Of a stretch of DNA of 31,616 nt, positions 9,243-31,616 are shown in pieces. The DNA is from a virus. Position numbers and translations under genes: made by a program. The stretch is taken from IMG/VR virus record IMGVR_UViG_3300003690_000048, positions 1 to 31,616 of that record. The stretch is one strand, 5' to 3'. Every line of letters starts with the position of its first letter. Position 1 is the first letter of the stretch. The notes under the pieces are model-generated. The model worked only from the letters and a program-made list of their open reading frames with translations. It had not been told where the DNA came from and made no database searches.

Positions 9243-11110
9243 CCACACAAGACCTGACGATTAAGCTTAAACTCAAGGACGACGCATCTAAGGGTATGGG
9301 CAAGGCGTCAAAGAATATCAAGGGCCACGCTGGGAAAATCAAGGCCAACCTCAGCAAAATTGGCACCGTCGGCGGGGGTGCGCTGATGATAGCATCGGCA
9401 GCCGCCCTCAAGCTCGGTGACACCTTCAAAGAGGCCGAGAACATCATCGCAGCCGGTACTGGGGCCACCGGTGAGGACTTGGAAGACCTCAAGGATTCCT
9501 TTCATGACGTGTTTACTGAGGTCCCAGACGACGCTGCTACCGTAGCCAGTGCCATTGCCGACGTAAATACGGCGTTCGGCTTCACAGGCGACGAACTGGA
9601 GAGGGTGGCCGAGCTAGCTCTTGGCGCTGGCAGGGCGATGGGCGAGGACATGGCGGGGCTGATAGCGTCCACGGCTGACGCTCTCATCGCATTCGACTCG
9701 CCGATGACGGATGCCGAGTCGTTGATGGACAAGTTGACTGTCGCGTCCCAGGCGTCCGGCACCTCAATGAAGGAAATCGCCGACAAGGTCGTGAAGTTTG
9801 GCCCGCAGCTAAATGCTATGGGCATTCCTCTGGATGAGTCTATCGCCCTGATTGCCAACATGGAAGCAAAGGGAATCAACGCTGGGAAGATGATGCCGGG
9901 GTTGAGCGGGGCGATGAAGAAGCTGGCCGATGAAGGGGTCACCGACATCTCAGGAGCGTTACAAGATGCGATAACAGCCATTGGAGAGACTGAGGACGAC
10001 ACCGAAGCTCTAGCGAAGGCGATGGAGGTCTTCGGAGCGGGCGCAGGTGTGCAATTTAAGGACGCCATCGACAAGGGTGCCTTCTCCATTGATGGCCCCG
10101 GCGGCTTGATGGAAGCACTCGCGAATTCCGACGGAGCATTAGGCGACCTAACAGAAAGCACCTTAACGTCGGCTGATAAGTTCGACATCATGAAAAATAA
10201 GGTGATGGATGCTGCGGCCCCCATCGGGGACTTCGCTGCTAAGGCCGGGCCGATGCTGATGATACTCCCGACCCTCACCACCATGACCGCAGCGCTATCT
10301 GGCGCGAAGGTGTTCTCGACTGCCGTGACATGGTTGCAGACTGCTGCTATGGCGGCATTAAATGTTGCGATGGGGCCGATTGGGCTGATTATCCTCGGAA
10401 TCGCCCTGGCTATCGCAGGCGTGATTTTGGTGTTCAAGAACTGGGACAAAATCATGGCAGTGTTCCAGAAGGCGTGGGACAAGTTCAAGAAAGGCATTCA
10501 GTGGCTGAGGGACAAATGGAAGGGAATATGGGACAAGGTCAAAAATGCCTTCCAGACGGTTGTCGATAAAGTCAAATCATTGTTTGATAGTAAATTGGGC
10601 TGGCTCCTGCCGGGTGGGGCGCTGCTGAAGGCGTTGTTTTTCTTGCGAGATAACTGGAAGACAATCTGGAACGGCATGAAGAACGTCGTTAAGGCGATTG
10701 CCAATCCGATTATCGGCGTCATCAATGCCGTAATCGGCGGCATCAACACCCTATTTGCTGCCCTCCGCAAAATCTCGGTGGGCTGGAAAGAGAAGAAGCT
10801 GCTGGGGAAGGTTGTCTTCCCAGGGTGGAAGCTCTCGCCGTTTAAAGGACTGCCAGACATCCCGAAGATTCCGGCAATGGCCGAGGGCGGAATTGTTACC
10901 AGCCCCACCCTGGCGATGGTGGGAGAGCGTGGCCCCGAAGCCGTCATCCCGCTCGGTAGGGGCGGAGCTGGCCTGGGAGTGACGGTCAACATTAACTTCC
11001 CCACGCGAGGGACAGTGCTGCTAGGCGACGACATGGCAGCGCGGAAGCTGGCCCAGGCGCTGACGCCTCTAATTAGACAGGCTCTCCGGGGCCAGCCGGG
11101 ATTCGCGTAA
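9239..11110 (+). CDS. Tape measure protein
   Basis: About 623 residues from ATG 9239 (ATGA overlap with the previous stop; the TTG at 9221 is less likely). The TMP core motif is present: TFKEAENIIAAGTGATGEDL, then a series of A-AIADVNTAFGFTGDELERV and PMTDAESLMDKLTVASQASG. A hydrophobic double span follows around residues 337-400 (GPIGLIILGIALAIAGVILV), as usual for tape measures that may enter the host membrane. The C-terminal MAEGGIVTSPTLAMVGERGP motif is also typical of phage tape measures. At the usual 0.15 nm per residue the tail would be near 90 nm. This implies a siphovirus with a short to medium tail. Confidence 0.93.
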   Translation: MTTQDLTIKLKLKDDASKGMGKASKNIKGHAGKIKANLSKIGTVGGGALMIASAAALKLGDTFKEAENIIAAGTGATGEDLEDLKDSFHDVFTEVPDDAATVASAIADVNTAFGFTGDELERVAELALGAGRAMGEDMAGLIASTADALIAFDSPMTDAESLMDKLTVASQASGTSMKEIADKVVKFGPQLNAMGIPLDESIALIANMEAKGINAGKMMPGLSGAMKKLADEGVTDISGALQDAITAIGETEDDTEALAKAMEVFGAGAGVQFKDAIDKGAFSIDGPGGLMEALANSDGALGDLTESTLTSADKFDIMKNKVMDAAAPIGDFAAKAGPMLMILPTLTTMTAALSGAKVFSTAVTWLQTAAMAALNVAMGPIGLIILGIALAIAGVILVFKNWDKIMAVFQKAWDKFKKGIQWLRDKWKGIWDKVKNAFQTVVDKVKSLFDSKLGWLLPGGALLKALFFLRDNWKTIWNGMKNVVKAIANPIIGVINAVIGGINTLFAALRKISVGWKEKKLLGKVVFPGWKLSPFKGLPDIPKIPAMAEGGIVTSPTLAMVGERGPEAVIPLGRGGAGLGVTVNINFPTRGTVLLGDDMAARKLAQALTPLIRQALRGQPGFA

Positions 11111-13770
11111 TGGCAAAGCCCAAGTACCGTGTAAGAGTCGATTGGAATCATGGCGGGCTGGGAGACCAGGACACCGCTATGGATTTCTCAACGGCGATTG
11201 ACGACATTACCAGCGACGTAAGGGTTATGGGGTATGACCATGTCCGTGACCTGTCCAGCGAGTTGATAGAGTCGGGGATTCTGTCCCTTGAACTCAATAA
11301 TACTGACCACAAATACAGCCCGACCAACATCACCGGAGGTTCGGCCAGCCCCCTGATTGCTAGTGGGGCGACCCTTGTACTCCCAGGCAAGCCCATCTGG
11401 GTGCAGATGTTCTACCCCTACGATGCCTTCACCGGCTCCCAGGCTAACCTCGACACCCACACCCCTGATGAGGATTCCGCGTGGGCATGGGTCGATAGCA
11501 CGTATGAGTTCGAGCTAGACGGCTCTGGAAATGCTCGCATCGCGAATTCCACCAGTGACAGCCAGACGGCGGGCCCGCGGTACTCCTACATGGAGTACGG
11601 TGATAAAAACGCATCCCTCCATGCTCGTATCACGACCCCTAGCGCTTATCTAGTGAGCTTCGCAAATAATCGGGCGTCATATTTCGGGTTCCTAATCCGC
11701 TGGACGGACGCTAACAACTATCAGGCCGTGGGGTTCGATGTATCCAACTCCACCCGCAGGGGCAGGGTGTCACTGTTTACATACAGCACTAACCGCACGG
11801 TCACGGGCAACGGGTCGTCTTCCACCAATAACTACACCTGCCCCGACTCCAGCCTGTACACGGTTGACCAGTACGTGATGATAGAGCATGAGCTACACCG
11901 CATCACCGCCATCCCTAACAGCACGACCATCACCTGTAACAGGGGCCAGCTTAGTACTCAGGCCACCGCTCATACAGGGACACTCGCAGCCCCCATAGTG
12001 CAGATGTCGCGCCTAACGGTACGAACGTCGTCTACGGTTGGCGCAGGCAGTGCGTTGTGGAGTGTGAGCGAGACTCACGACATTCAGGTCCATCTCCGAG
12101 ACGAGTATATCGACGTGACCTTCGACGGGTCGCATTGCTCTCCTGGCGATTCTGGGGATGTGTTCTCAGTTGGGAGTAAGACCTTTGCAGTAGCCGAGGG
12201 GGTTGAGCCGGTGACCTCCCATACATTCGTCGCAGAGGCCGGGGCCAGCGTCGGCACCAAACACGGCCTCTGGCGTCAAGACCGGGCTAAACGTGGCTCA
12301 GACTATGGGGATACTCCGGCAGAGTCGTCCCTTGATGCAGTCGAGTTGTACGAAGAGTTCGGGGGATACCGCAGCTTGTTTTTCGGGTATCTGTCGTCCA
12401 TCACGCCAGACCCTGACCCCCAGAACCAATACTGCTACATTGAAGCCTACGACGAGTTCGAGACGGCCAAACGCGCCCATATCCGGTATTCGGTGGTGTC
12501 GGGAGATGCCTGGGGTGTGCGGCGGAAGGAGCTTCACACTCCCCTGCTGGAGTTAATGGGCCACGCAAAGCAGTTTGTGTATGGCTGGACAGCCTTCACG
12601 AACTACCGGGCGCACAATCTCATCATGGAGCCATTCACGGCTGTCGCTGGGCCAGCGGCAGACATCGAAGTGGACGGACAGCCCGCCAACAAAAAAATCG
12701 ACGACAATCTTTTGAACGTCTTATGGCAGGCACAGGTGGAGGAAGACGGATTCATCTATATGGACGGGGAGGGCTTCCTGCGGCTGGAGAGCCGAGTTCA
12801 TCGCACTGGTGCCGGAACCGGCCATACACCCAATACGTGGCCCATCATAACCCCGTCAGGCCAGGCTCACTCGGCCACGCATGACTCTCTGACAAGTCAT
12901 ACGCATGTCTTATATGGGCGGGACGCGGCGGCCACATATAAAAACACCTACGACGGCACGAATCCTGCGTATTCCTTCCTGAGCTACGAGGACGGCCACC
13001 AGAATATCGAGAACCGGCTGACGATGGTCGTGCAGGGTGCTGTTATAGCTGTAGTATATGCCACAAAGATTTGGAATTCCTCCCAGGCTGACGGCGATGA
13101 GAGGATTGAAGTAGGGGCAGGGGCGACAATCACCATTATCTGTGACCTTGGCTCCTCGTATACCACCGCCTCAGCGGTGCAAACTCCCTCAGTTACGAAT
13201 ACCTACCTGGCGGCTTATCCTGCCAGAGACGCCAGCGGGACGGCTGCGACCAATAGCGAGATAGTTGCCACAGCGGTGAGGGCGTTGGGCGACCCGAATT
13301 ATTCCGCGTTCAAGTTCACCCTTGCCAACACGACTGGCAGCACGCTATACGTGACGAAGTTCGACTTGTACACCCCGACTAGCTCCCCCGGCGGCAGTCA
13401 CGTTGGAGCCTACAAGCTCGGGGAGAAGGTCGCTGTGGAGTCCCTGGACGCTACCAGCATCACGGCCTATGGGGAGCGTCGGAAGGAGTTGAAGAGTCTA
13501 TTCCTAACCAACTCCGAGACGGCCCAGCTTGCATTGGCTAATCGCCTTGCGCGGAAGAAGGACCCAAAGACCGTCATGACTCTCACGCTCCTGGGGGGCG
13601 ATAAGGCGACGCTCCACCATATGATTACCCGTCGTCTGTCAGACCGGGTGAAGGTTACGAATTCCGACCTCAATATGACCGATAAGGAGATGTACGTCGA
13701 GGGGGAGACCTGGGACATCTCCGAGGGTGGCACTGTGATAGAGCAACAACTACTCCTTCGGGCTGTCTAA
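11110..13770 (+). CDS. Large tail hub / receptor-type minor tail protein
   Basis: 886 residues, directly after the tape measure (taATGg overlap), where distal tail and hub proteins are found. The start (VRVDWNHGGLGDQDTAMDFS) and ILSLELNNTDHKYSPTNI resemble the N-terminal domain of phage minor tail proteins, in which FDDITSDV-type strands are followed by LNN-D--YSP. Residues about 110-400 look like an inserted concanavalin-type beta-sandwich (FGFLIRWTDANNYQAVGFDV), which could bind sugar. The C-terminal third (ANRLARKKDPKTVMTLTLLG, then RLSDRVKVTNSD) matches the end of hub-type tail proteins. This single gene may replace separate Dit and Tal proteins. Confidence 0.75.
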   Translation: MAKPKYRVRVDWNHGGLGDQDTAMDFSTAIDDITSDVRVMGYDHVRDLSSELIESGILSLELNNTDHKYSPTNITGGSASPLIASGATLVLPGKPIWVQMFYPYDAFTGSQANLDTHTPDEDSAWAWVDSTYEFELDGSGNARIANSTSDSQTAGPRYSYMEYGDKNASLHARITTPSAYLVSFANNRASYFGFLIRWTDANNYQAVGFDVSNSTRRGRVSLFTYSTNRTVTGNGSSSTNNYTCPDSSLYTVDQYVMIEHELHRITAIPNSTTITCNRGQLSTQATAHTGTLAAPIVQMSRLTVRTSSTVGAGSALWSVSETHDIQVHLRDEYIDVTFDGSHCSPGDSGDVFSVGSKTFAVAEGVEPVTSHTFVAEAGASVGTKHGLWRQDRAKRGSDYGDTPAESSLDAVELYEEFGGYRSLFFGYLSSITPDPDPQNQYCYIEAYDEFETAKRAHIRYSVVSGDAWGVRRKELHTPLLELMGHAKQFVYGWTAFTNYRAHNLIMEPFTAVAGPAADIEVDGQPANKKIDDNLLNVLWQAQVEEDGFIYMDGEGFLRLESRVHRTGAGTGHTPNTWPIITPSGQAHSATHDSLTSHTHVLYGRDAAATYKNTYDGTNPAYSFLSYEDGHQNIENRLTMVVQGAVIAVVYATKIWNSSQADGDERIEVGAGATITIICDLGSSYTTASAVQTPSVTNTYLAAYPARDASGTAATNSEIVATAVRALGDPNYSAFKFTLANTTGSTLYVTKFDLYTPTSSPGGSHVGAYKLGEKVAVESLDATSITAYGERRKELKSLFLTNSETAQLALANRLARKKDPKTVMTLTLLGGDKATLHHMITRRLSDRVKVTNSDLNMTDKEMYVEGETWDISEGGTVIEQQLLLRAV

Positions 13771-16181: not shown

Positions 16182-16210
16182 TTGACACATGTATGGTACT
16201 TTAGTACCAT
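16182..16210 (+). promoter_or_regulatory. Promoter with overlapping palindromic operator
   Basis: TTGACA (16182-16187) is a perfect -35 box. A 17-nt spacer leads to taccat (16205-16210) as a weaker -10. A perfect inverted repeat, atggtact-tt-agtaccat (16193-16210), covers the spacer and the -10, so a dimeric repressor bound there would block RNA polymerase. It lies 47 nt before the ATG at 16257 and just after the late terminator, as expected for the main early or accessory promoter. The cognate repressor is not obvious; the HTH protein at 20892 is one candidate. Confidence 0.65.
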
Positions 16211-16256: not shown

Positions 16257-16499
16257 ATGAAGTGGAACTACAAGAAGGTTAATGAGCATCAGAAATTCCT
16301 TCCAGACAACTTTGGCCCTATCGCATACATGCTCTGTGAGCAGCTGGTAGGCCAGTCAGATGATGACGTCAAGGTCTGTGAAGAGGTTGCTGCTATTGAA
16401 GTTGATGCTCCAAGTGGCAAGAGTTCAATGTACTGCAAGACCCATGCTAATGAGAGACTCCTTGGACTGCCACCAATGTTCTCTCAGGCCACTTCTTAG
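16257..16499 (+). CDS. Small protein, first gene of the CpG-poor cassette
   Basis: 80 residues, not recognised. It begins KWNYKKVNEHQKFLPDNFGP, with a central acidic part (VGQSDDDVKVCEEVAAIEVD) and a C-terminal MYCKTHANERLLGLPP. Three Cys and several His could bind metal. Ribosome site gaaggag precedes ATG 16257. It is the first gene after the operator-bearing promoter and shares a repeated leader with the GHKL-zincin gene, so the two are probably co-regulated partners. CpG is almost absent from its second half. Confidence 0.6.
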   Translation: MKWNYKKVNEHQKFLPDNFGPIAYMLCEQLVGQSDDDVKVCEEVAAIEVDAPSGKSSMYCKTHANERLLGLPPMFSQATS

Positions 16500-16511
16500 T
16501 TGGCACTCACT

Positions 16512-16561
16512 AGAGCCACCAACTCACAAGGTTGATGGCTCTGTTGGTCTGTCAACAGACC
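16512..16561 (+). promoter_or_regulatory. Two hairpins between cassette genes
   Basis: agagccaccaac (16512-16523) pairs with gttgatggctct (16531-16542) with one mismatch. ggtctgt (16546-16552) pairs perfectly with acagacc (16555-16561). The first hairpin shares its gagccaccaa arm with the hairpin after the GHKL gene at 18191. No T-run follows, so these may be attenuators or RNA processing sites rather than full terminators. Confidence 0.5.
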
Positions 16562-16574
16562 TTAATAGGGTGAT

Positions 16575-16604
16575 GACCTACCATCAAGAGAGAAGGAGAA
16601 GAGG
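16575..16604 (+). promoter_or_regulatory. Leader copy 2 before the GHKL-zincin gene
   Basis: gacctacca (16575-16583) followed by tcaagagagaaggagaagagg and ATG. It is a diverged copy of the 16228 leader, with the same order of elements and nearly the same spacing. A duplicated leader in front of both genes points to a common control or a shared modular origin. Confidence 0.5.
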
Positions 16605-18110
16605 ATGAAGGCAAGGTTTGAAGTAAGTACAGAAGGGATGAAGGGATTGCATGATGGAAGGCCTCTCTGGTCTTTGGTAAAGGAGTTGGTTGCCAATGCA
16701 TGGGATGAGGAGACCACCATATGCAAGGTGACCATCAAGGGTGAGGAAGACGTTTATGCTGATGGAGTGGTCAAGAGCATCATCAAGGTGGCTGTTGAGG
16801 ATGATGGTGCTGGCTTCAAGGACATTGCTGATGCCTTCACCTTGATGGCTCCCACATCCAAGAGGCAAGAGGTAGGGGTCAGGGGAAGATTCAACATAGG
16901 AGAGAAGGAAATCCTCTCAGTGGCTCTTGAAGGCAAGGTTGAGACTGTTGGCACTACCATTGATTTTCCAAGAGAGGGTGGCAGAGTGGTCACCAAGAAC
17001 AAGAGGAAGAAGGGGACCATAGTCTCAGCCATTGTTGAGAGGCCACTCAGTGAGGTTGGAGAGACTGAGAAGGCTCTTGGTGAGTTCCTGCCACCAAGCC
17101 ATATCACCTACTCCATCAATGGCAAGGTGGTTGAGCCAAGGAAGAAGGTGGGAGTGGCTGAGGGCATTCTTCACACAGTGCTGGCAACTGGTATTGGTCA
17201 GCCTCTCAGGTACTCCTACAGGAAGACCAAGATAGACATCTATGAGCCTCACAATGGAGAAGGCCATATCTATGAGATGGGCATCACCATTCAGCCCCTT
17301 GATATGCCTTATGACGTAGATGTCCAGCAGAAGGTTCCCATGCCCCCAAACAGGGACACAGTGACAGCAAGATACCTCCAAGATGTCTATTCCCATGTCC
17401 TCTCAGTGGTGGCTGATGGCCTTGACCAGTCAGAAGCATCAGAGAGTTGGGTTCAGATGGCAGTTGAGGATGAGGACACCCCTGATGATGTGGTTGAGCA
17501 GGTCATGAAGGCCAAACTGGGAGAGAATGCAGTCCTCTGGTCAAATGATGTTCAAGCCAATGAGATGGCTCACGCCTCTGGCATGGACTTGATTAAGCCA
17601 AGGACTCTCTCAAAGGTTGAGAGGGAGAGGTTCAAGGCTGTTGGCCTACTCACTGCCAAGGATGGGTATGGGGTCATGACTGGTGACAGAGGTGAACTGA
17701 AGGTCTTGGATGGTAAGAACATCACTCTTGAGATGCACCTTGTGGGGGACTATGCTGAGTGGCTCTGTGAGCAACTCCTTGGCTTCAGATGCACAATCAG
17801 ATTCATCAGGATGAAGGGACTGTCAGGAGAGCATCAGAGGCTGGCTCAGTATGGTCACAGGACTCTAGACTTCGTGGTGGACAATCTGGGGGAGGACTGG
17901 TTCAAGATGGAGAATGACTCTCCTTCATGGGAACAGACCTCTCTCATCCTCCATGAGTTGGCTCATGAGGGAGAGGTTGACCACCTCCCCCATACTGGTG
18001 ATTACGTCCATAGGATTGCAGACCTTGGAGCCAGAGCCACCCACCTTGCCATCAGCAAGGGTTGGTGGACTGGCGCTAGCCCTTGCACTCTGCCACAGAT
18101 AAGTAGCTAG
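16605..18110 (+). CDS. GHKL (HSP90-like) ATPase fused to a C-terminal HExxH zincin
   Basis: 501 residues. N-terminal GHKL ATP-binding fold: N-box LVKELVANAWDE (E27, N31), G1 motif EDDGAG (D66-G70), G2-like GVRGRFNIGEKE (about 91-101) and GTTI near 116. The middle, residues 150-330, is a probable transducer-like domain. The end carries SLILHELAHEGEVDHLPHTG (H450, E451, H454, with H460, H463 and H469 near). This fits a SprT/WLM-type zincin in which HExxH is followed by H-x3-F/Y and a helix. Phage GHKL proteins are sometimes called rIIA-like; the metalloprotease end suggests ATP-controlled proteolysis. CpG is nearly absent in this gene. Start has a strong agaaggag site. The motifs are clear; the function is inferred. 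Confidence 0.75.
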   Translation: MKARFEVSTEGMKGLHDGRPLWSLVKELVANAWDEETTICKVTIKGEEDVYADGVVKSIIKVAVEDDGAGFKDIADAFTLMAPTSKRQEVGVRGRFNIGEKEILSVALEGKVETVGTTIDFPREGGRVVTKNKRKKGTIVSAIVERPLSEVGETEKALGEFLPPSHITYSINGKVVEPRKKVGVAEGILHTVLATGIGQPLRYSYRKTKIDIYEPHNGEGHIYEMGITIQPLDMPYDVDVQQKVPMPPNRDTVTARYLQDVYSHVLSVVADGLDQSEASESWVQMAVEDEDTPDDVVEQVMKAKLGENAVLWSNDVQANEMAHASGMDLIKPRTLSKVERERFKAVGLLTAKDGYGVMTGDRGELKVLDGKNITLEMHLVGDYAEWLCEQLLGFRCTIRFIRMKGLSGEHQRLAQYGHRTLDFVVDNLGEDWFKMENDSPSWEQTSLILHELAHEGEVDHLPHTGDYVHRIADLGARATHLAISKGWWTGASPCTLPQISS

Positions 18111-18187: not shown

Positions 18188-18237
18188 CTTGAGCCACCAA
18201 GATTGATTGGTGGCTCAGTTGGTTTTGGTGGCTCAAG
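18188..18237 (+). promoter_or_regulatory. Mutually exclusive hairpins after the GHKL gene
   Basis: The arm cttgagccaccaa (18188-18200) can pair with either of two targets. One is ttggtggctc (18207-18216), a 10-bp stem with a 6-nt loop. The other is ttggtggctcaag (18225-18237), a perfect 13-bp stem. The two right arms are direct repeats of ttggtggctca. Only one hairpin can form at a time, as in attenuators or antiterminators. No T-run is present. It lies in the gap between the CpG-poor cassette and the next gene. Confidence 0.6.
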
Positions 18238-18267: not shown

Positions 18268-18498
18268 ATGGATAGGAAGGTGGTGTCTTGCCCAGTGGAA
18301 GGGGCATGGCTGGTCAACGAGGGCGCCCCTGCTTTCGGCAAGACCTTGGCTTCTGGTGTTGCTGTCTATTTCCACTGGGGGAGAGGTGGATGGTGGGAGT
18401 GTGAGAGGTGCGGGGCTTTCGTCAACAATATGAGAGCGCCCTGTGAGCATGTCAGGGCAGTCGAATCCTATGAGGTGAAAAAGGCAGACTCATGGTGA
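18268..18498 (+). CDS. Small zinc-binding protein (SWIM-like pattern)
   Basis: 76 residues. WECERCGAFVNNMRAPCEHV gives C-x2-C...C-x-H, the spacing of SWIM-type zinc fingers, which bind DNA or protein. The N-terminal half (SCPVEGAWLVNEGAPAFGKT) has no recognised motif. Strong ribosome site (gaaggaga) before ATG 18268. CpG content is normal again here, so the gene is outside the depleted cassette. The stop overlaps the next ATG. Confidence 0.6.
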   Translation: MDRKVVSCPVEGAWLVNEGAPAFGKTLASGVAVYFHWGRGGWWECERCGAFVNNMRAPCEHVRAVESYEVKKADSW

Positions 18499-19313
18499 GG
18501 GATGAGTTCGTGGCGGACCTTGAACATCTCCAGACAATGATGGAGAACCCGGAGCCTCTGGACCCAGAACTGCAAGACTGTCTGGACAGAGAGGTTGAGG
18601 GGATGCTGAAGCACCATCTGGTAACTATGCCTTATTTCAGCACAGTCCACGCATCCATCGCCAATGAGCAACTCAGAGCCAAGAAGGAGATGCTGGCGAA
18701 GGCGGATGCGGAGAGGGATTGGTCACAGGCCATCATGCTACATGAGCGCCATGCGAGGCTCCTGGCCTTCGTTGAGAGGGCTATCAACATGGAACCCAAA
18801 GATTACTGGCATCTGTTGGGGAGTGTCTGGATTGACGCAGAGTTCCCGTCGACGGACCGGTCCCTTTGGCTCGAGTTGTTCAAGGCTCCACGTAATGAGC
18901 GTGAGCATCTGATGTCAGAAGAGGAGAGAACCGCACTTGCTGCGATGCCACAGGAACTGGTCATCTACAGAGGAACAAATGGCTCATATGCGAGTCTTCA
19001 GGGGATGAGCTGGACCCTGTCGAGGAAGACTGCCGAGTGGTTCATGCGGAGATATAGCCGCCAATACCGCGACGGGCTAGTTGCAGAATGTGAGACTTGC
19101 GGGTGGCTGCAAGCACACCCTGAGCCACCTACAGCGGGGCTAAATGAGACTATGATGGACCGCCATCAGAGGCGCACTCACCTGAATGTTCCACTCATCG
19201 GGATGGGTAAGTGTGCGAAGTCCAAGGTCCTGGCCTACTTCACCGAAAGGGGCGAGGATGAGATAGTCATCGACCCCAAGGATATCAGGGACATCAGGGA
19301 GACTCGGTTGTGA
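18492..19313 (+). CDS. Putative ADP-ribosyltransferase-like protein with zinc-finger insert
   Basis: 273 residues. Residues 1-150 are mostly helical. From 156 the order LVIYRGTNG (R160), GMSWTLSRKTAEWFMRRY (S173), KVLAYFTERGEDEIVI (E255, E257) matches the R-S-E pattern of ADP-ribosyltransferases. This YRG / SWT / AYF-RGE-E combination recurs in uncharacterised phage proteins. Between S and E lies an insert with CETCGW (C200, C203) and DRHQRRTH (H225, H230), which looks like a C2H2-type zinc finger. A role in modifying a host or phage target is inferred; no target is evident. It is coupled to the methyltransferase by GTGA overlap. Confidence is fair for the fold and low for the activity. Confidence 0.55.
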   Translation: MVRDEFVADLEHLQTMMENPEPLDPELQDCLDREVEGMLKHHLVTMPYFSTVHASIANEQLRAKKEMLAKADAERDWSQAIMLHERHARLLAFVERAINMEPKDYWHLLGSVWIDAEFPSTDRSLWLELFKAPRNEREHLMSEEERTALAAMPQELVIYRGTNGSYASLQGMSWTLSRKTAEWFMRRYSRQYRDGLVAECETCGWLQAHPEPPTAGLNETMMDRHQRRTHLNVPLIGMGKCAKSKVLAYFTERGEDEIVIDPKDIRDIRETRL

Positions 19314-20695
19314 GCCAAGGAGTAGACAGCCATGTGGGTACACGTCCCGAAGAGTATACATCCATCTCCCTCTGTAGCGGATATGGGGGCATTGAAATTG
19401 CCCTCCGACAAGCTATCAGAACTCGAACGCTTTGCTATGTGGAAATCGGAGTCGAGGTCTGCGAAATCCTGGTCAACCTTATGGAACAAGAACTCATCGA
19501 TGAGGCGCCTATCTGGACTGACCTCACCAACTTCCCTGTTGACCTCTTCCGTGACCGCGTGGACATCGTCCAGGGCGGCTTCCCTTGTCAGCCATTTTCA
19601 GTTGCAGGACTCCAGAAGGGGACAGAAGACCCCAGAAATCTCTGGCCCTCAGTCAGTAGGGTCATACGAGGCATTAGGCCATCAGTCGTCTTTCTTGAAA
19701 ATGTCCCTGGAATCCTCCCCTACTACTTCGAGACCATCCGGCCCGAACTGGTCCAGATGGGTTATGTGGTTACGGAGGGTCTATTCTCAGCGGGAGTCGA
19801 TGGCGGCGCTCCGCAGAGACGCCAGAGGCTCTTCATCCTGGCCTACTCCGAGGGGACGAGACTACAAAGGCGAGGGATACCACGACACCTTACCGACTAC
19901 CTCGATGAACTGGCCCTCTTCTCAGACAATGGACACCTTGGCTCCCCGATCGGAAGAGGCCAACCAGGAGAGGTTCACGACGGGGGCGAGGAGGGGGAGA
20001 ACGGCGCCGGACAACCTGAGAGAGTTCGTTCAGCCAGAGATGCATCCCAGCAAGTGGCCCACACCGAGGGCAGGGATGTCGGTAAGCCCATCATCCAAGG
20101 AAGCGATGGAAGAGAAGCCGGGGTTCCTTCGGCTGGAGAGGGAGACGGATGCTTTTGCAGAGAGGATGGAGAAAGCACAGGGTTGGCCGACACCGAATGC
20201 GGGGCCACAGAACGATGCGGATACGAAATGGAAGGAACGCCGCCAGCGAATCAAGGAACGGGGCATCAACGGCAACGGATTCGGCCTGACACTGGGGATG
20301 GCGGCGACGAACTGGCCCACGCCTTCATCAGCAATGACAGCCGGATATTCAGAGAAGGAGAACTGTGTGAGTCACACGAAGGCGGGTCACGTTGGGAACG
20401 AAATGCTCAGACAGGCAGTAGACAACCTACCGAACTCCCACTCTTCCCGCCTGGACCCAATGACGCAAGAGGATGGGAGTGGGTCCTCTCAAGATGGCCC
20501 CAGCTCAGTCCAACCTACTGCAAGGAAGGACACGACGTGCAGCCCGACCTGTCGGCGGCTCCGAGTCGAGTTTGCGGAATGGCTGATGGGTCTATGTCCG
20601 GGGTGGACAAACGCCTCAGAGCCGTTGGGAATGGCGTCGTACCAATCACATGCGCTCTCGCTTTCCATACGCTTGGCAGAGGAAGGATTTTTTGA
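19310..20695 (+). CDS. DNA (cytosine-5) methyltransferase
   Basis: 461 residues from GTG 19310; GTG 19334 with a better ribosome site (aaggag) is an alternative start. Motif I ISLCSGYGGIEIAL (18-31), motif IV GGFPCQPFSVAG with catalytic C93, motif VI ENVPG (130), motif VIII GGAPQRRQRLFILA (165-178) and motif X KRLRAVGNGVVPITCA (434-449) are all present. So the enzyme should be active, methylating C5 of cytosine in an unknown site. Between VIII and X lies a long Gly/Glu-rich variable region (residues 180-380), with LADTE- and VAHTE-type repeats. These are exactly the overlapping-frame counterparts of WPTP repeats. Phage solo methyltransferases usually protect phage DNA from host restriction. 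Confidence 0.9.
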   Translation: MSQGVDSHVGTRPEEYTSISLCSGYGGIEIALRQAIRTRTLCYVEIGVEVCEILVNLMEQELIDEAPIWTDLTNFPVDLFRDRVDIVQGGFPCQPFSVAGLQKGTEDPRNLWPSVSRVIRGIRPSVVFLENVPGILPYYFETIRPELVQMGYVVTEGLFSAGVDGGAPQRRQRLFILAYSEGTRLQRRGIPRHLTDYLDELALFSDNGHLGSPIGRGQPGEVHDGGEEGENGAGQPERVRSARDASQQVAHTEGRDVGKPIIQGSDGREAGVPSAGEGDGCFCREDGESTGLADTECGATERCGYEMEGTPPANQGTGHQRQRIRPDTGDGGDELAHAFISNDSRIFREGELCESHEGGSRWERNAQTGSRQPTELPLFPPGPNDARGWEWVLSRWPQLSPTYCKEGHDVQPDLSAAPSRVCGMADGSMSGVDKRLRAVGNGVVPITCALAFHTLGRGRIF

Positions 20696-20714
20696 TGACA
20701 CTCCAATGGCCTGA
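19332..20714 (+). CDS. Overlapping-frame WPTP-repeat protein within the methyltransferase gene
   Basis: 460 codons open in the +1 frame over almost the whole methyltransferase gene. ATG 19332 has an ideal ribosome site (aaggag, 9 nt upstream) and overlaps the alternative methyltransferase start as ATGTG. The product resembles a known uncharacterised phage protein type: WVMWLRRVYSQRESMAALRR, SSSWPTPRGRDYKG, three more WPTP motifs (residues 242, 285, 328), GINGNGFGL, and FAEWLMGLCPGWTN near the end. That WLMG-GW ending occurs as the C-terminus of other phage cytosine methyltransferases. It may be a second expressed protein, a frameshift-accessible alternative C-terminus, or a relic. Recognition is from family pattern; expression is unproven. 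Confidence 0.45.
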   Translation: MWVHVPKSIHPSPSVADMGALKLPSDKLSELERFAMWKSESRSAKSWSTLWNKNSSMRRLSGLTSPTSLLTSSVTAWTSSRAASLVSHFQLQDSRRGQKTPEISGPQSVGSYEALGHQSSFLKMSLESSPTTSRPSGPNWSRWVMWLRRVYSQRESMAALRRDARGSSSWPTPRGRDYKGEGYHDTLPTTSMNWPSSQTMDTLAPRSEEANQERFTTGARRGRTAPDNLREFVQPEMHPSKWPTPRAGMSVSPSSKEAMEEKPGFLRLERETDAFAERMEKAQGWPTPNAGPQNDADTKWKERRQRIKERGINGNGFGLTLGMAATNWPTPSSAMTAGYSEKENCVSHTKAGHVGNEMLRQAVDNLPNSHSSRLDPMTQEDGSGSSQDGPSSVQPTARKDTTCSPTCRRLRVEFAEWLMGLCPGWTNASEPLGMASYQSHALSLSIRLAEEGFFDDTPMA

Positions 20715-26141: not shown

Positions 26142-27366
26142 GATAGCCGAGGCCGTCGGGTCATCCCGGCGTGTCTCTGTCGTAGGCTGTAACGGCTCAG
26201 GTAAGGACTGGCTGGCCGCTCGTATGGCCCTCTGGTGGGTCACGGCGCACTACCCAGCCAAGGTGGTCATCACCGGGCCGACCTACCGACAGGTCGATGA
26301 TGTGATATTCAACGAGCTACGGGCTGCGTACCGCTCTGCCCCGGCCATCCTGGGCGGGCGGCTCTTCGAGGCTCCGAGGTGGGAGCTAGACGAGACCACG
26401 TTCATCGTGGGCTTCTCGACTGACCGACCCTGGAACCTTCAGGGCTTCCACTCGCCGAGCCTTATGGTCATCGTCACCGAGGCTCACGCTATGGACGAGG
26501 ACAGCATCAACGCGCTGTACCGGCTCAACCCTGACACCCTGCTGATGGTGGGCAACCCGTTCGCCACCACTGGCCCGTTCTACGCATCGCACCACCAGAA
26601 CCGGGAGAACTGGACGACCTTCAGCATCAGTGCCTTCGATACCCCGAACCTCATAGAGGGGCGCACAGTGGTCAGGGGCATGGTGACGGCAGAGGACGTG
26701 GCAGACCGGGCAGCGGAGTGGGGGGTGGACTCTCCCATGTACATCGGCGCGGTGCTGGGTGAGTTCCCAGAGGAGCTTGACGACGCCCTGCTGCCGCTCT
26801 GGTTGGCACGGGAGTCGATGGAGCGAGAGGTTGAGGCAGAGGGCGAGGTGGTGATAGGCTGCGACGTGGCCCGGTTCGGCAAGGATAAGACCGTGGTGGC
26901 GAGGCGTCAGGGCAACATGGCCGAAGTGGTCTATCGGGTGCAGGGTAAAGACCTGATGGCTATCGCTGGGTGGCTGGGTCGGTACTGCGAGGACAACAAG
27001 GTGGACACCCTGGTGGTGGACGACACTGGTCTCGGTGGAGGAGTTACCGACAGGCTCCGAGAGGTGGGGCTGAACGGCACGAAGCTCGTGGCCTTCAAGG
27101 GTGGCGAGAAGGCGCGGCAGGAGAAGCGGTTCGCGAACAGGGTGACCGAGTCCTGGTGGATGGTCAGGGAGTGGGTGATAGCGGGTGGCAAGCTGCCGAA
27201 CGACCCGGCCCTGGTTGGACAGCTAACCTCTCGTCGTTATAGCATCCAGTCGGACAAACGGCTGATGCTGGAATCTAAGGACAAGATGTCTAAGTCTCCC
27301 GACGAAGCCGACGCCCTAGCTATGACGTTCGGTGGTCGGAGAGGGGAGCTAAAGGTATGGGTGTGA
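26032..27366 (+). CDS. Terminase large subunit
   Basis: 444 residues. ATPase domain: Walker A VVGCNGSGKDWLAAR (51-65), Walker B LMVIVTEAHAM (144-154), motif III-like LLMVGNPFATTGPFY (170-184). RNase H-like nuclease: VVIGCDVARFGKDKT (D278), TLVVDDTGLGGGVTD (D330/D331), and SPDEADALAMTFGG near the end. All the acidic residues expected for Mg2+ are present. It pumps DNA into the prohead and cuts it. The start must lie upstream of SPTLFLTDAL, so the 110-nt overlap with TerS is real; GTG 26056 is the only other early start. Confidence 0.93.
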   Translation: MATATTELVELAQRIAASPTLFLTDALGARPYPKQTEIAEAVGSSRRVSVVGCNGSGKDWLAARMALWWVTAHYPAKVVITGPTYRQVDDVIFNELRAAYRSAPAILGGRLFEAPRWELDETTFIVGFSTDRPWNLQGFHSPSLMVIVTEAHAMDEDSINALYRLNPDTLLMVGNPFATTGPFYASHHQNRENWTTFSISAFDTPNLIEGRTVVRGMVTAEDVADRAAEWGVDSPMYIGAVLGEFPEELDDALLPLWLARESMEREVEAEGEVVIGCDVARFGKDKTVVARRQGNMAEVVYRVQGKDLMAIAGWLGRYCEDNKVDTLVVDDTGLGGGVTDRLREVGLNGTKLVAFKGGEKARQEKRFANRVTESWWMVREWVIAGGKLPNDPALVGQLTSRRYSIQSDKRLMLESKDKMSKSPDEADALAMTFGGRRGELKVWV

Positions 27367-28100
27367 GAACTAACCTTTCAGGCGCTTGGGGTGCCCTTCG
27401 GGGCCGGGAGCGGGCCAACCCTGTCGGCGGTCAGCTATTCGATAAGCTCTCGAAGTCGTGGGGCATCGGGGACGCCTGGGCGAAGCCCTCATATGGCAAC
27501 TATTACGCGCAGTCTGTCAGTGTGTACGCGGCCATCAAGCTCAGGCAGGAAGCCATTGCCAGGGTGCCGCTGTTCGTCTACCGGGAGACCGAGGACGGGC
27601 TTGAGAAGGTCGAGCCTGACCACCCTCTCCAGGCCGTGCTTGACCGGGTCAACCGGTGGTGGACTCGTGGCGACCTCTGGCGGGCTACCGAGACCTATCT
27701 GTCGCTCTGGGGTACAGCCTATTGGTCGATAGTTCGAGAGGGTAGCGTTATCACAGAGATATGGCCCTTGCGTCCTGACAAGATGAAGATATTACCTGAC
27801 GCCCAGGACTACATCAAGGGGTTCGTCTACGGCACCGGCAACGACAGGCGGGCGTTTGCCCCCGACGAGATTATCTGGTTCCGATATTTCAATCCCTTGG
27901 ACGAGCTATCCGGCCTGTCGCCTATCGCTCCGGTGGCCCTGTCGGTAGACATGGGCGTCGATGCCCTACAGACCAACCGCTCGGCCCTCGCCAACGACGC
28001 GACACCGGGCATGATTATCAGCGTGAGCGACAGTCCCACAGATGAGGAGGTGATGGTCGCTACGCTGGCCCGAAGGCCGCACGACGCCCTGCCATACTGA
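27357..28100 (+). CDS. Portal protein, N-terminal part (reading frame broken)
   Basis: 247 residues. YYAQSVSVYAAIKLRQEAIA, then VPLFVYRE, HPLQAVLDRVN, TYLSLWGTAYWSIVREG, then IIWFRYFNPLDELSGLSPIA is the HK97-type portal pattern. After SDSPTDEEV the frame runs into ATLARRPHDALPY and a stop. The -1 frame instead reads RYAGPKAARRPAILSEGM, the conserved portal sequence that should follow. About 10-15 expected residues between DEEV and RYAG are also missing. This indicates a small out-of-frame deletion near 28050-28060 rather than a single slip. ATG 27357 overlaps the TerL end by 10 nt. Confidence 0.85.
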   Translation: MGVRTNLSGAWGALRGRERANPVGGQLFDKLSKSWGIGDAWAKPSYGNYYAQSVSVYAAIKLRQEAIARVPLFVYRETEDGLEKVEPDHPLQAVLDRVNRWWTRGDLWRATETYLSLWGTAYWSIVREGSVITEIWPLRPDKMKILPDAQDYIKGFVYGTGNDRRAFAPDEIIWFRYFNPLDELSGLSPIAPVALSVDMGVDALQTNRSALANDATPGMIISVSDSPTDEEVMVATLARRPHDALPY

Positions 28101-28108
28101 GCGAGGGC

Positions 28109-30223
28109 ATGACAGCCAGCAACCTTGGCTTCTCCCCCAAGGACATGATGGCCTTGGAGTCTATGCGCTGGAGTAACGAAGATGTGGCGCGGGTGTTCAA
28201 CGTGCCGACCCCCATGCTCCACGATTTATCCAGGGCCACCTACGCCAACATCATGACGGCCCGGAAGAGCTTTTGGGAAGATTGTATTGGCCCCCAGTTG
28301 GCGTTCTATGAGGAAGAGCTAACCGAACTGTTATTGCCGTTGTATGGCGAGGAGGGGCTGGTGGTGCGCTTCGACACCTCTGGCGTCCAGGCACTACAAG
28401 AGGACGAGGACGCTAAGGCTACTCGTCGGGACACGTACATTAAGTCGGGCGTTCTGACCGTCAATGAGGTCAGAGGCGAGATGGGTCTGGAGCCTACTGA
28501 CAACGTAATCAGTTACCCGACCCTTGCTGCTATCGGTGCCGGTGTCCTGACCATCAACGAGGTCCGTAGCGGCCTGGGCATGGAGCCTGTGGAGTGGGGT
28601 GATAAGCCGCCCGCTCCGTCTGGGCCACCAGCGATGGCGATGTCAGAGGAGGTGGCGAGTACTCGCAGCCCTTTAGCACCGAGGGTGGTGGAGACCTCCG
28701 ACAGCGAGGAAACCCTACCGCTCCCTTTAGCAGCAGAGGACTGGGAAGCCTATGGACGGGCGATAGACACCGAGCAAAGACGGAAGGGCAAGAGGCTCGA
28801 AGCCGAGTTCCGTAAGGACTTGTCTTCGGCCATACGGGAGTTCGAGAAGCAGGAGAGTCCAGAGAGAGCGCCGGGGACTAATGGCGCTGTGGCAGCGGTG
28901 GCTGTGAGGGCCGCACCGGTACTGGAGAGCGTTACTTGGCATCCGCAGTTCACGGAGTTAATTAAGACCGCTTTGACAAAGGGAGTCCTGGGCGGTGCCG
29001 AGACCATGCGGGACAAGTTTAAGCTAGGCACGAGCTTTGATATAACTGCGCCCCACGTCACCAAGTGGATAGAGACCCGTTCAAAATGGTGGGCCAAGAC
29101 CGTCGGAGACGGCACAGAGAAGAAGGTTCTCCAGATAGTGTCGGACGGGAGAAGGGACGGCGTGGGGCCGTTCGAGATTGCCAAGAACCTGAGAGGATAC
29201 CGGGAGTTCGCCACGACGGCACGGTCTGAGCGGGTAGCTCGGACGGAGATGACCGTGGCCCAGAACCAGGGCAACCTCCAGCAATTCCGACAGGCGGGCG
29301 TTGAGGGGAAGCGGTGGTGGTCGGCAGAGGATGAGAGGACGAGAGAGACACACCTGGACGCACACGGCCAAGTGCGGGCGCTCTCAGAGCTATTCCAGGT
29401 TGGCCTTGACGCGATGGACGGGCCAGGGCAAGGCTCAGACCCGGCAGAGAATATCAACTGCCGGTGCGTAGTCATCCCGCCACCGAGAGGCTACAGGCCA
29501 GGGGACATCCCCAAAGAGCAAGCAGGGAAGATTCCCTCGGCAGAGAAGGGGGTCATCCACCTCACAGACAAGGGGGACATCGACATCGCCAAGTTTGAAC
29601 CGGCGGTCAAGCGGGCGTCAGGAATAAGGAACGCACCCGTCGAGGTTGCCCAGAACGCCACCACCCAGACCATCCAGAGCTTGCGCCCAAACGTCGCCAG
29701 GAAGCTCATTAAGATGTTGGGCCAAGCCAAGAGGCGAACCACCGTGGTCAAAGAGAATAGTCGCCACCTGAAGATGGACAGCGGCGACATTGCTGCGGGT
29801 GTATATAAGCATCGCCAAGATGCGGTCTGGGTTAGCGATTACCATTCATTCTACGCAACCCACCACGAACTCGGCCACCAGCTTACGGCTAGAGCAGGAC
29901 GCCTGAATGAAGTCCTTGGCCGGAAGGTAGCATCAGAGTTTGCGGCAGAGGTTCAGGCTAGGTGGGAGGTGATAAAGAGACTGCCGTATGGGGGGACGGT
30001 CACTGAATATTCAAGAGATAGCATTCGGGAATACATGGCCGAGGCATTCAAGTACGCAATCATTGACCCGAAAAAACTAGGAGAGAAAGACCCAATCATG
30101 CTGAAGATAATGAGGAAGTACTTCGTCAAGGACACCCCGGCGAAGTTCGTGGAAGTCCCCAACTTCACCGGCCCCATCCGAGCATTACTGGCGAAGTTAC
30201 TGAGGCGGGAGGTCTTGGCATGA
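28109..30223 (+). CDS. Portal C-terminal part fused to MuF domain and HExxH zincin effector
   Basis: 704 residues from ATG 28109; the frame is open from 28046 and continues the portal (RYAGPKAARRPAILSEGM). Residues 1-165 end the portal (FSPKDMMALESMRWSNEDVA), with a repeated motif GVLT(V/I)NEVR at 114 and 145. Residues about 230-460 are the MuF/SPP1 gp7-like head morphogenesis domain: ARSERVARTEMTVAQNQGNL, WWSAEDERTRETHLDAHGQ, and ENINCRCVV near 447-455. Residues 540-660 hold a gluzincin: THHELGHQLTAR (H586, E587, H590) and SIREYMAEAFKYA (E645 as probable third ligand). MuF proteins with C-terminal toxin domains are a known polymorphic toxin class; fusion to the portal would place the effector inside the virion. 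A gene for a candidate immunity partner follows. Confidence 0.8.
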   Translation: MTASNLGFSPKDMMALESMRWSNEDVARVFNVPTPMLHDLSRATYANIMTARKSFWEDCIGPQLAFYEEELTELLLPLYGEEGLVVRFDTSGVQALQEDEDAKATRRDTYIKSGVLTVNEVRGEMGLEPTDNVISYPTLAAIGAGVLTINEVRSGLGMEPVEWGDKPPAPSGPPAMAMSEEVASTRSPLAPRVVETSDSEETLPLPLAAEDWEAYGRAIDTEQRRKGKRLEAEFRKDLSSAIREFEKQESPERAPGTNGAVAAVAVRAAPVLESVTWHPQFTELIKTALTKGVLGGAETMRDKFKLGTSFDITAPHVTKWIETRSKWWAKTVGDGTEKKVLQIVSDGRRDGVGPFEIAKNLRGYREFATTARSERVARTEMTVAQNQGNLQQFRQAGVEGKRWWSAEDERTRETHLDAHGQVRALSELFQVGLDAMDGPGQGSDPAENINCRCVVIPPPRGYRPGDIPKEQAGKIPSAEKGVIHLTDKGDIDIAKFEPAVKRASGIRNAPVEVAQNATTQTIQSLRPNVARKLIKMLGQAKRRTTVVKENSRHLKMDSGDIAAGVYKHRQDAVWVSDYHSFYATHHELGHQLTARAGRLNEVLGRKVASEFAAEVQARWEVIKRLPYGGTVTEYSRDSIREYMAEAFKYAIIDPKKLGEKDPIMLKIMRKYFVKDTPAKFVEVPNFTGPIRALLAKLLRREVLA

Positions 30224-31238: not shown

Positions 31239-31616
31239 ACGAGCGGGCGAGGCAGGGGCCAGACCTCGACATCGCAGGGCTACAGCTAGAGAACTATATG
31301 AGAAATCCTGTCGTCCTCTGGAGCCATGATATGAGTGGCAAGACGGAGAGCGCAGGTCTGCCCATCGGCAGGACTAACCGTATGACCAACACGGACGGCA
31401 AGATTGAGGTGGACTTCGAGTTCCTAGCCGAAGACCCCTTTGCTGACCGTGTCCGTAACGCCTGGGACAAGGGATTCCTAAAGGCTGCATCGGTCTCCTG
31501 GCTCCCTTTGGAGTCTGAGGAGAGCGAGGACGGCCACCAACGAGATGTCCGCTCAGACCTTCTTGAGTGGTCTATAGTCTCGGTTCCTAGCGACCCCGAC
31601 GCTGTGAGGGCTGTCC
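31208..31616 (+). CDS. Prohead protease, N-terminal half after the duplication
   Basis: In this frame the sequence reads YRATIFVNERARQGPDLDI, then NPVVLWSHDMSGKTESAGLP (catalytic His in WSHD), then FLKAASVSWLPLES (catalytic Ser region, KAASVSW). This is the S78-type prohead protease that cleaves the capsid delta domain. The frame continues through the contig junction to 372. It has no start of its own before GTG 31235, which would delete the first conserved strand, so it depends on the start at 31092 and on one 56-bp copy being absent. Confidence 0.8.
31526..31616. repeat. Right copy of 91-bp terminal direct repeat
   Basis: Identical to 1-91 and in the same coding phase, so the two ends are one locus. 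It marks contig circularity rather than a second gene copy. Confidence 0.95.

Follow-up and report, generated by a model that had tools for sequence, protein, structure and literature searches.

To our knowledge, all known ATP-dependent proteases use AAA+ motors, and in FtsH and others an ATPase and a zinc protease lie in one chain. GHKL ATPases are clamps or switches that act on DNA, kinases or clients, while Wss1 and Spartan of eukaryotes digest proteins that are crosslinked or bound to DNA. In the MORC and paraMORC proteins of restriction systems the part that comes after the GHKL-S5 module varies, TIR and nuclease domains being among those found there (Iyer et al. 2008, PMC2292703), and the rIIA proteins also have variable C-termini (PMC7824862). 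The text of Iyer et al. makes no mention of a peptidase or protease. Neither a description nor the biochemistry of a GHKL ATPase fused to a zincin was found in the literature searched, that of non-subscription journals, an absence which is weak evidence.

The window, that is, the whole stretch of DNA analysed here, is a virus record of 31,616 nucleotides from IMG/VR, and its gene at 16605-18110 encodes a protein of 501 aa in which these two kinds of domain appear to be joined. The parts of this protein are as follows.

16605-18110, plus strand: the predicted GHKL-S5-zincin protein, 501 aa (exact open frame; alignment and structure model)
16605-17084, plus strand: GHKL ATPase domain, residues ~1-160 (Pfam, sacsin and MutL profile matches, Foldseek)
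16683-16697, plus strand: N-box E27...N31, both residues invariant (alignment)
16800-16814, plus strand: D66-x-x-x-G70 (DDGAG), with D66 and G70 invariant and G68 variable (alignment)
16881-16907, plus strand: ATP-lid motif RGRFNIGEK, residues 93-101 (alignment)
17097-17474, plus strand: S5/transducer-type middle domain, residues ~165-290 (AlphaFold secondary structure; Foldseek to TRAP1, MORC, MutL and GyrB)
17328-17354, plus strand: Q242-KVP-...-R250 motif, with Q242 and R250 invariant, a candidate phosphate-sensing loop (alignment)
17718-18059, plus strand: putative C-terminal zincin domain, residues ~372-485 (profile, isolated-domain model, Foldseek)
17952-17966, plus strand: HELAH, residues 450-454 (alignment)
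17991-17993, plus strand: H463, conserved candidate for the third zinc ligand (alignment; in Wss1 and proabylysin the third His lines up with it)

The N-terminus is, to judge from motifs and model, a GHKL (Bergerat) ATPase domain, as the first-pass annotation had proposed from E27/N31 and DDGAG in calling it HSP90-like. E27 and N31 sit in ELVANAWD and are unchanged in 107 of 107 aligned relatives; the DxGxG box and the glycine-rich lid are also present, and D66, G70, G94, G99 and K101 are invariant in the alignment while the middle Gly68 varies. With the 501-aa protein alone as query, the Pfam scores for HATPase_c_3 (E=1e-4) and for HATPase_c (0.0024) stay below the curated cut-off; in the family, 79 members of 97 match the former model and 64 the latter. 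In the query and the 97 family members, Pfam matches are HATPase domains only and include no AAA+ domain, and those of the query fall in the ATPase half only. Sacsin and MutL profiles match the GHKL domain, and no named family in PADLOC, PHROGs or NCBIfam matched apart from models of sacsin-like or generic GHKL type. An AlphaFold2 model built from 91 alignment rows (pLDDT 92.2, pTM 0.80) matches TRAP1 (2e-12), MORC3 (1e-8), MutL (3e-8), GyrB (1e-7) and also topoisomerase VI in a Foldseek search of the PDB, and the predicted fold of the ATPase part is given with confidence.

Between the ATPase and the zincin-like part lies a domain of S5 type, which is an addition to the earlier account. In Foldseek, fragments of MutL, MORC, GyrB and TRAP1 that comprise GHKL and S5, transducer or middle domains match the model; by sequence the S5-type domain reached no significance. 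The Q242/R250 motif may be equivalent to the catalytic loop of Hsp90 and GyrB, and a sequence comparison of the two was not significant against shuffles.

The C-terminus is strongly suggested by its sequence, and moderately by its fold, to be a small zincin. HExxH arises in 4.2% of shuffles of the 501-aa protein, so in one sequence alone the motif is unremarkable. Chance is ruled out by its invariance: HExxH together with a third His in the H463 column is kept in 106 of 107 aligned relatives from genomes and viral contigs, the exception (L028) being an open frame without an intact C-terminus. In the genome-derived set the corresponding count is 37 of 38, the exception being one that lacks an intact C-terminus; since this set was fetched with the seeds RGRF and QKVP only, while HExxH was among the seeds for the viral set, the count of 37 is unbiased with respect to the motif. 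Two His residues, H460 and H463, follow HELAH, and H463 is the conserved candidate for the third ligand because in the close relatives L003, L012 and also L002 the sole nearby downstream His is that of PH[TS]G. The homologues thus keep H/E/H plus the third His, and HELAH with a downstream His, read from the single sequence as a zincin, is borne out by this conservation and by the profile of the C-terminus. In that profile HExxH proteases rank first, with weak scores for myroilysin (3e-4), proabylysin (0.0065) and Wss1 (0.0078); all three align at HExxH, and two of them, proabylysin and Wss1, also at the third His. The curated Pfam cut-offs of WLM and YgjP-like were not reached by any member, the best being E 0.005 and 0.0036, respectively.

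As to structure, the expectation of the first-pass annotation stands in part: the isolated C-terminus is modelled (pLDDT 88) as a small zincin-like domain, but the fold match is weak, the best Foldseek values being 0.11 for selecase and 0.21 for PprI, with HtpX lower and none below 0.001. All three are zinc peptidases. The loop of the metal site is modelled at moderate confidence only (block means 74-82). It is very unlikely that the zincin lacks catalytic activity and is instead a binding module, stabilised by metal, in an rIIA-like ATPase; the weak fold match and the rIIA proteins, which share the ATPase part and vary in their C-terminal domains (PMC7824862), speak for such a role, but the invariance of HExxH extends beyond the His ligands to the catalytic Glu, which disfavours a merely structural zinc site.

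The joining of GHKL and HExxH domains in one protein, which the first-pass annotation had noticed in this phage, recurs in 117 distinct relatives of the same architecture with identity down to ~25%, and every intact one examined keeps both sites. By tblastn and pattern searches of IMG/VR, full-length relatives with 91% (L001), 63%, 49% and lower identity were found; at least 184 IMG/VR stretches encode a relative, of which the best 80 of 184 were kept. Genomes of widely differing bacteria and archaea contribute 44 contigs that encode relatives, and other full-length ones are encoded on a 485-kb metagenomic phage and six plasmids. The fusion is therefore neither due to chance nor limited to this phage, and an artefactual join of two genes is ruled out by the full-length homologues in phages, plasmids, bacteria and archaea. 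In the 118-sequence alignment the conserved positions lie in three blocks, GHKL (E27, N31, D34, D66, G70, K86, R93-G-R95, G99 and K101), middle domain (E224, G226, Q242, P245 and R250) and zincin (H450, E451, H454 and H463). The ATPase and zincin residues are invariant at ~25-30% identity, and both predicted active sites are under strong constraint in the family.

Among deposited phage records, only 1 of 50,697, itself metagenomic, encodes a relative, and two further family members used as query gave the same outcome; this near-absence in cultured phages would explain why the family seems undescribed. Cultured carriers are Picosynechococcus PCC 7002 (plasmid pAQ6), Methylibium PM1, Bosea and Rhodovastum. 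The distribution of the family is patchy. Its tree has a mixed, predominantly viral branch, in which at least 10 switches between virus and cell are forced, and apart from it a deep cellular branch with ten rows from cyanobacteria and two from alphaproteobacteria.

Compared with the described systems, the protein agrees with each in part. The Hsp90 family (TRAP1, HtpG) provides the top Foldseek matches over the GHKL and middle domains; membership was rejected, as the C-terminal dimerisation domain is missing and a zincin-like domain stands after residue ~365 instead. MutL was likewise rejected: the alignment to E. coli MutL covers no more than ~50 N-terminal columns, and the C-terminus is zincin-like, without a dimerisation or endonuclease domain. 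T4 rIIA and rIIA-like proteins share the GHKL + S5 module and are, as here, phage accessory ATPases, and Foldseek among viral models found many RIIA proteins, including KVP40 RIIA, besides an unnamed viral protein of 30% identity. T4 rIIA, however, has 725 aa, another C-terminus and no HExxH; its profile match is limited to the GHKL domain with no full-length match, the family matched no PHROG that is named rIIA, and membership was rejected. MORC and paraMORC proteins also continue from GHKL-S5 into an output domain and are mobile and linked to conflict, whereas the phages here are without a conserved helicase/restriction operon; the SF2-helicase restriction operon is absent from the window, and only single cellular members adjoin ResIII/DEAD helicases. 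Wss1/WLM proteins and minigluzincins (proabylysin and selecase) share HExxH-x(4-8)-H followed by Tyr/Phe, profile-aligned with the phage protein, which differs by being fused to a GHKL ATPase and falling below the Pfam cut-offs named above. FtsH membership was rejected on the HATPase domains that Pfam shows in place of AAA+, and the difference from FtsH and other ATP-dependent proteases is that of a GHKL as against an AAA+ ATPase.

These resemblances raise an alternative, which we consider unlikely, that the protein is a nucleoprotein protease whose MutL/MORC-like clamp would close on DNA while a WLM-like zincin digests DNA-bound or crosslinked proteins, thereby clearing phage DNA of crosslinks or of bound host proteins. 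The Wss1-like C-terminus with its aligned HExxH and third His, the likeness of the ATPase part to MutL, MORC and topoisomerases, which act on DNA, and a gene position beside DNA-modification and early DNA-metabolism genes all agree with it. But the ATPase part is as near to TRAP1 (Hsp90) and rIIA, neither of which is known to us as a DNA clamp, no DNA-binding motif was identified in the protein, and replication genes are not a fixed neighbour in other phages.

The gene is the second of a two-gene cassette, whose further features are as follows.

16182-16210, plus strand: predicted promoter, TTGACA-17 nt-TACCAT, ahead of the cassette (consensus scan)
16193-16210, plus strand: operator-like perfect inverted repeat ATGGTACT-TT-AGTACCAT, overlapping the -10 (sole exact match in the window)
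16257-16499, plus strand: first cassette gene, 80 aa (open frame; 96% DNA identity to L001)
16513-16541, plus strand: hairpin GAGCCACCAAC-(7)-GTTGATGGCTC between the two cassette genes (sequence)
16574-16604, plus strand: leader TGACCTACCA...GAGAAGGAGAAGAGG, including a ribosome-binding site (found ahead of 16257 as well)
18189-18218, plus strand: 12-pair stem resembling a terminator, downstream of the gene (hairpin and T-rich tail recur in L001)

In the consensus scan the number of promoter sites in the region was not above chance; the -35 is identical in L001. There the repeat reads ATACTACT-AA-AGTAGTAT, so that both arms have changed together with pairing kept and the -35 unchanged, and this is good evidence that the palindrome over the -10 is a repressor site. 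The leader common to both cassette genes is TGACCTACCA...GAGAAGGAGA, a similar hairpin lies between the two genes in L001, and the 80-aa product has no Pfam match. G + C is 0.513 in the gene and 0.506 in the cassette (16257-18110) as against 0.573 in the window, and GC3 of the gene is 0.58 as against 0.65-0.79 for most other genes, a nearby methyltransferase gene (0.56) being the exception. A separately promoted cassette of distinct composition had been suggested at first reading, and the low GC and GC3 and a predicted promoter and terminator recognisable in L001 agree with this; own promoter, own terminator and differing composition together make up what looks like the anatomy of a moron-like accessory gene.

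Downstream, the 273-aa gene at 18492-19313 (phrog_4776, function unknown) has no Pfam match and is missing at the same place in L001, and in L002, L098, L108 and L110 a relative of it is found close to the GHKL-zincin gene; its product holds a stretch YRG...S.T....A..F, which we take to be reminiscent of ADP-ribosyltransferases. The following cytosine methyltransferase gene has a second frame, B (19332-20714, 460 aa), fully open over its whole length beside frame A (19310-20695), and frame B is also open over the matching L001 stretch. Frame A holds the usual catalytic motifs and GNGVVP, and its LADT is encoded by the same DNA as the WPTP of frame B; frame B carries WPTP repeats and EFAEWLMGLCPGWT, resembling methyltransferase C-terminal sequence, and weakly matches Synechococcus phage DNA within or beside a methyltransferase gene. 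Dual coding or a frameshift-derived recognition region is possible. Further along, ORF 28109-30223 is the C-terminal half of a portal protein fused to a Mu F-like head protein and ends in HHELGHQL, possibly a second zincin in the same phage; the portal frame breaks between ORF 27357-28100 and this ORF (28100-28109), by sequencing error or real frameshift. An exact 91-base terminal repeat (1-91 and 31526-31616) is consistent with a circular or complete genome of ~31.5 kb.

A comparison of neighbours by Pfam and PHROG summaries gave no conserved partner gene in phages, where the genes around it have early or accessory functions (Mom-like modification, superinfection exclusion, integrases/resolvases, helicases and DUF932). 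In L071, a 481-aa protein encoded two genes downstream (9768-11213) has no Pfam match and holds GQFGSGNK, resembling another GHKL lid; its gene is also near the family gene in L063, L064 and L065, and it is possibly a second GHKL ATPase paired with the family protein.

Bacterial immune systems typically include CHAT, TIR and cyclic-nucleotide genes, and because such genes adjoin the family in cells a conflict role is likely, with partners that vary. In the cellular branch the neighbours are a diadenylate-cyclase-like gene (DAC) together with one for a CHAT-TPR protein on Picosynechococcus plasmids, and elsewhere a TIR or TIR-TPR protein (L042 and L044) or an Mrr/ResIII protein (L048). Another cellular member, on a Rhodovastum plasmid, has SIR2-HerA on one side and a DEAD-box helicase on the other. 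Together with the moron-like anatomy, these neighbours of the deep cyanobacterial and alphaproteobacterial branch (DAC, CHAT-TPR, TIR-TPR and restriction) and the nearby SIR2-HerA favour a defence or abortive-infection protein of cells and temperate phages, in which the ATPase would sense infection and the zincin would cleave and so activate CHAT/TIR effectors, stand-alone versions being carried by phages against rivals. This is improbable in that specific form, for the partners vary by lineage and are absent from phages, the PADLOC matches are weak and confined to the ATPase part, and of 292 cyanobacterial genomes just 3 have the gene. For a link of the phage copies to defence or exclusion, the methyltransferase gene close by and the cyanobacterial effector genes are context only. 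The counter-defence suggested in the first-pass annotation is only one conflict role among several that may apply; since the cellular branch adjoins defence-type genes, defence or superinfection exclusion is just as possible.

The reading that we put forward, and hold as evenly balanced between right and wrong, is a GHKL-S5 ATP clamp with a small C-terminal zinc protease, repressibly expressed from an accessory cassette and acting in phage-host or phage-phage conflict. ATP would bind the GHKL pocket (E27, N31, D66 and the RGRFNIGEK lid) and the lid would close; the S5 domain (Q242 and R250) may sense the phosphate and pass closure on, and this would probably happen in a homodimer like those of Hsp90, MutL and MORC. 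Once closed, the clamp would present the target that it has captured to the zincin (H450, E451, H454 and H463) for cleavage, whereby a host defence component may be cleaved or a competing phage sensed and excluded. With somewhat more doubt, the family may be a new class of ATP-dependent protease with a GHKL clamp and not an AAA+ ring, one that is common among uncultivated phages and also occurs at cyanobacterial loci with CHAT/TIR immune-type genes. Because cultured carriers exist, the family can be tested now, and if it works as the anatomy suggests, the GHKL-zincin fusion would couple ATP and proteolysis in a different way and provide a testable model of rIIA-like GHKL proteins in phage conflict.
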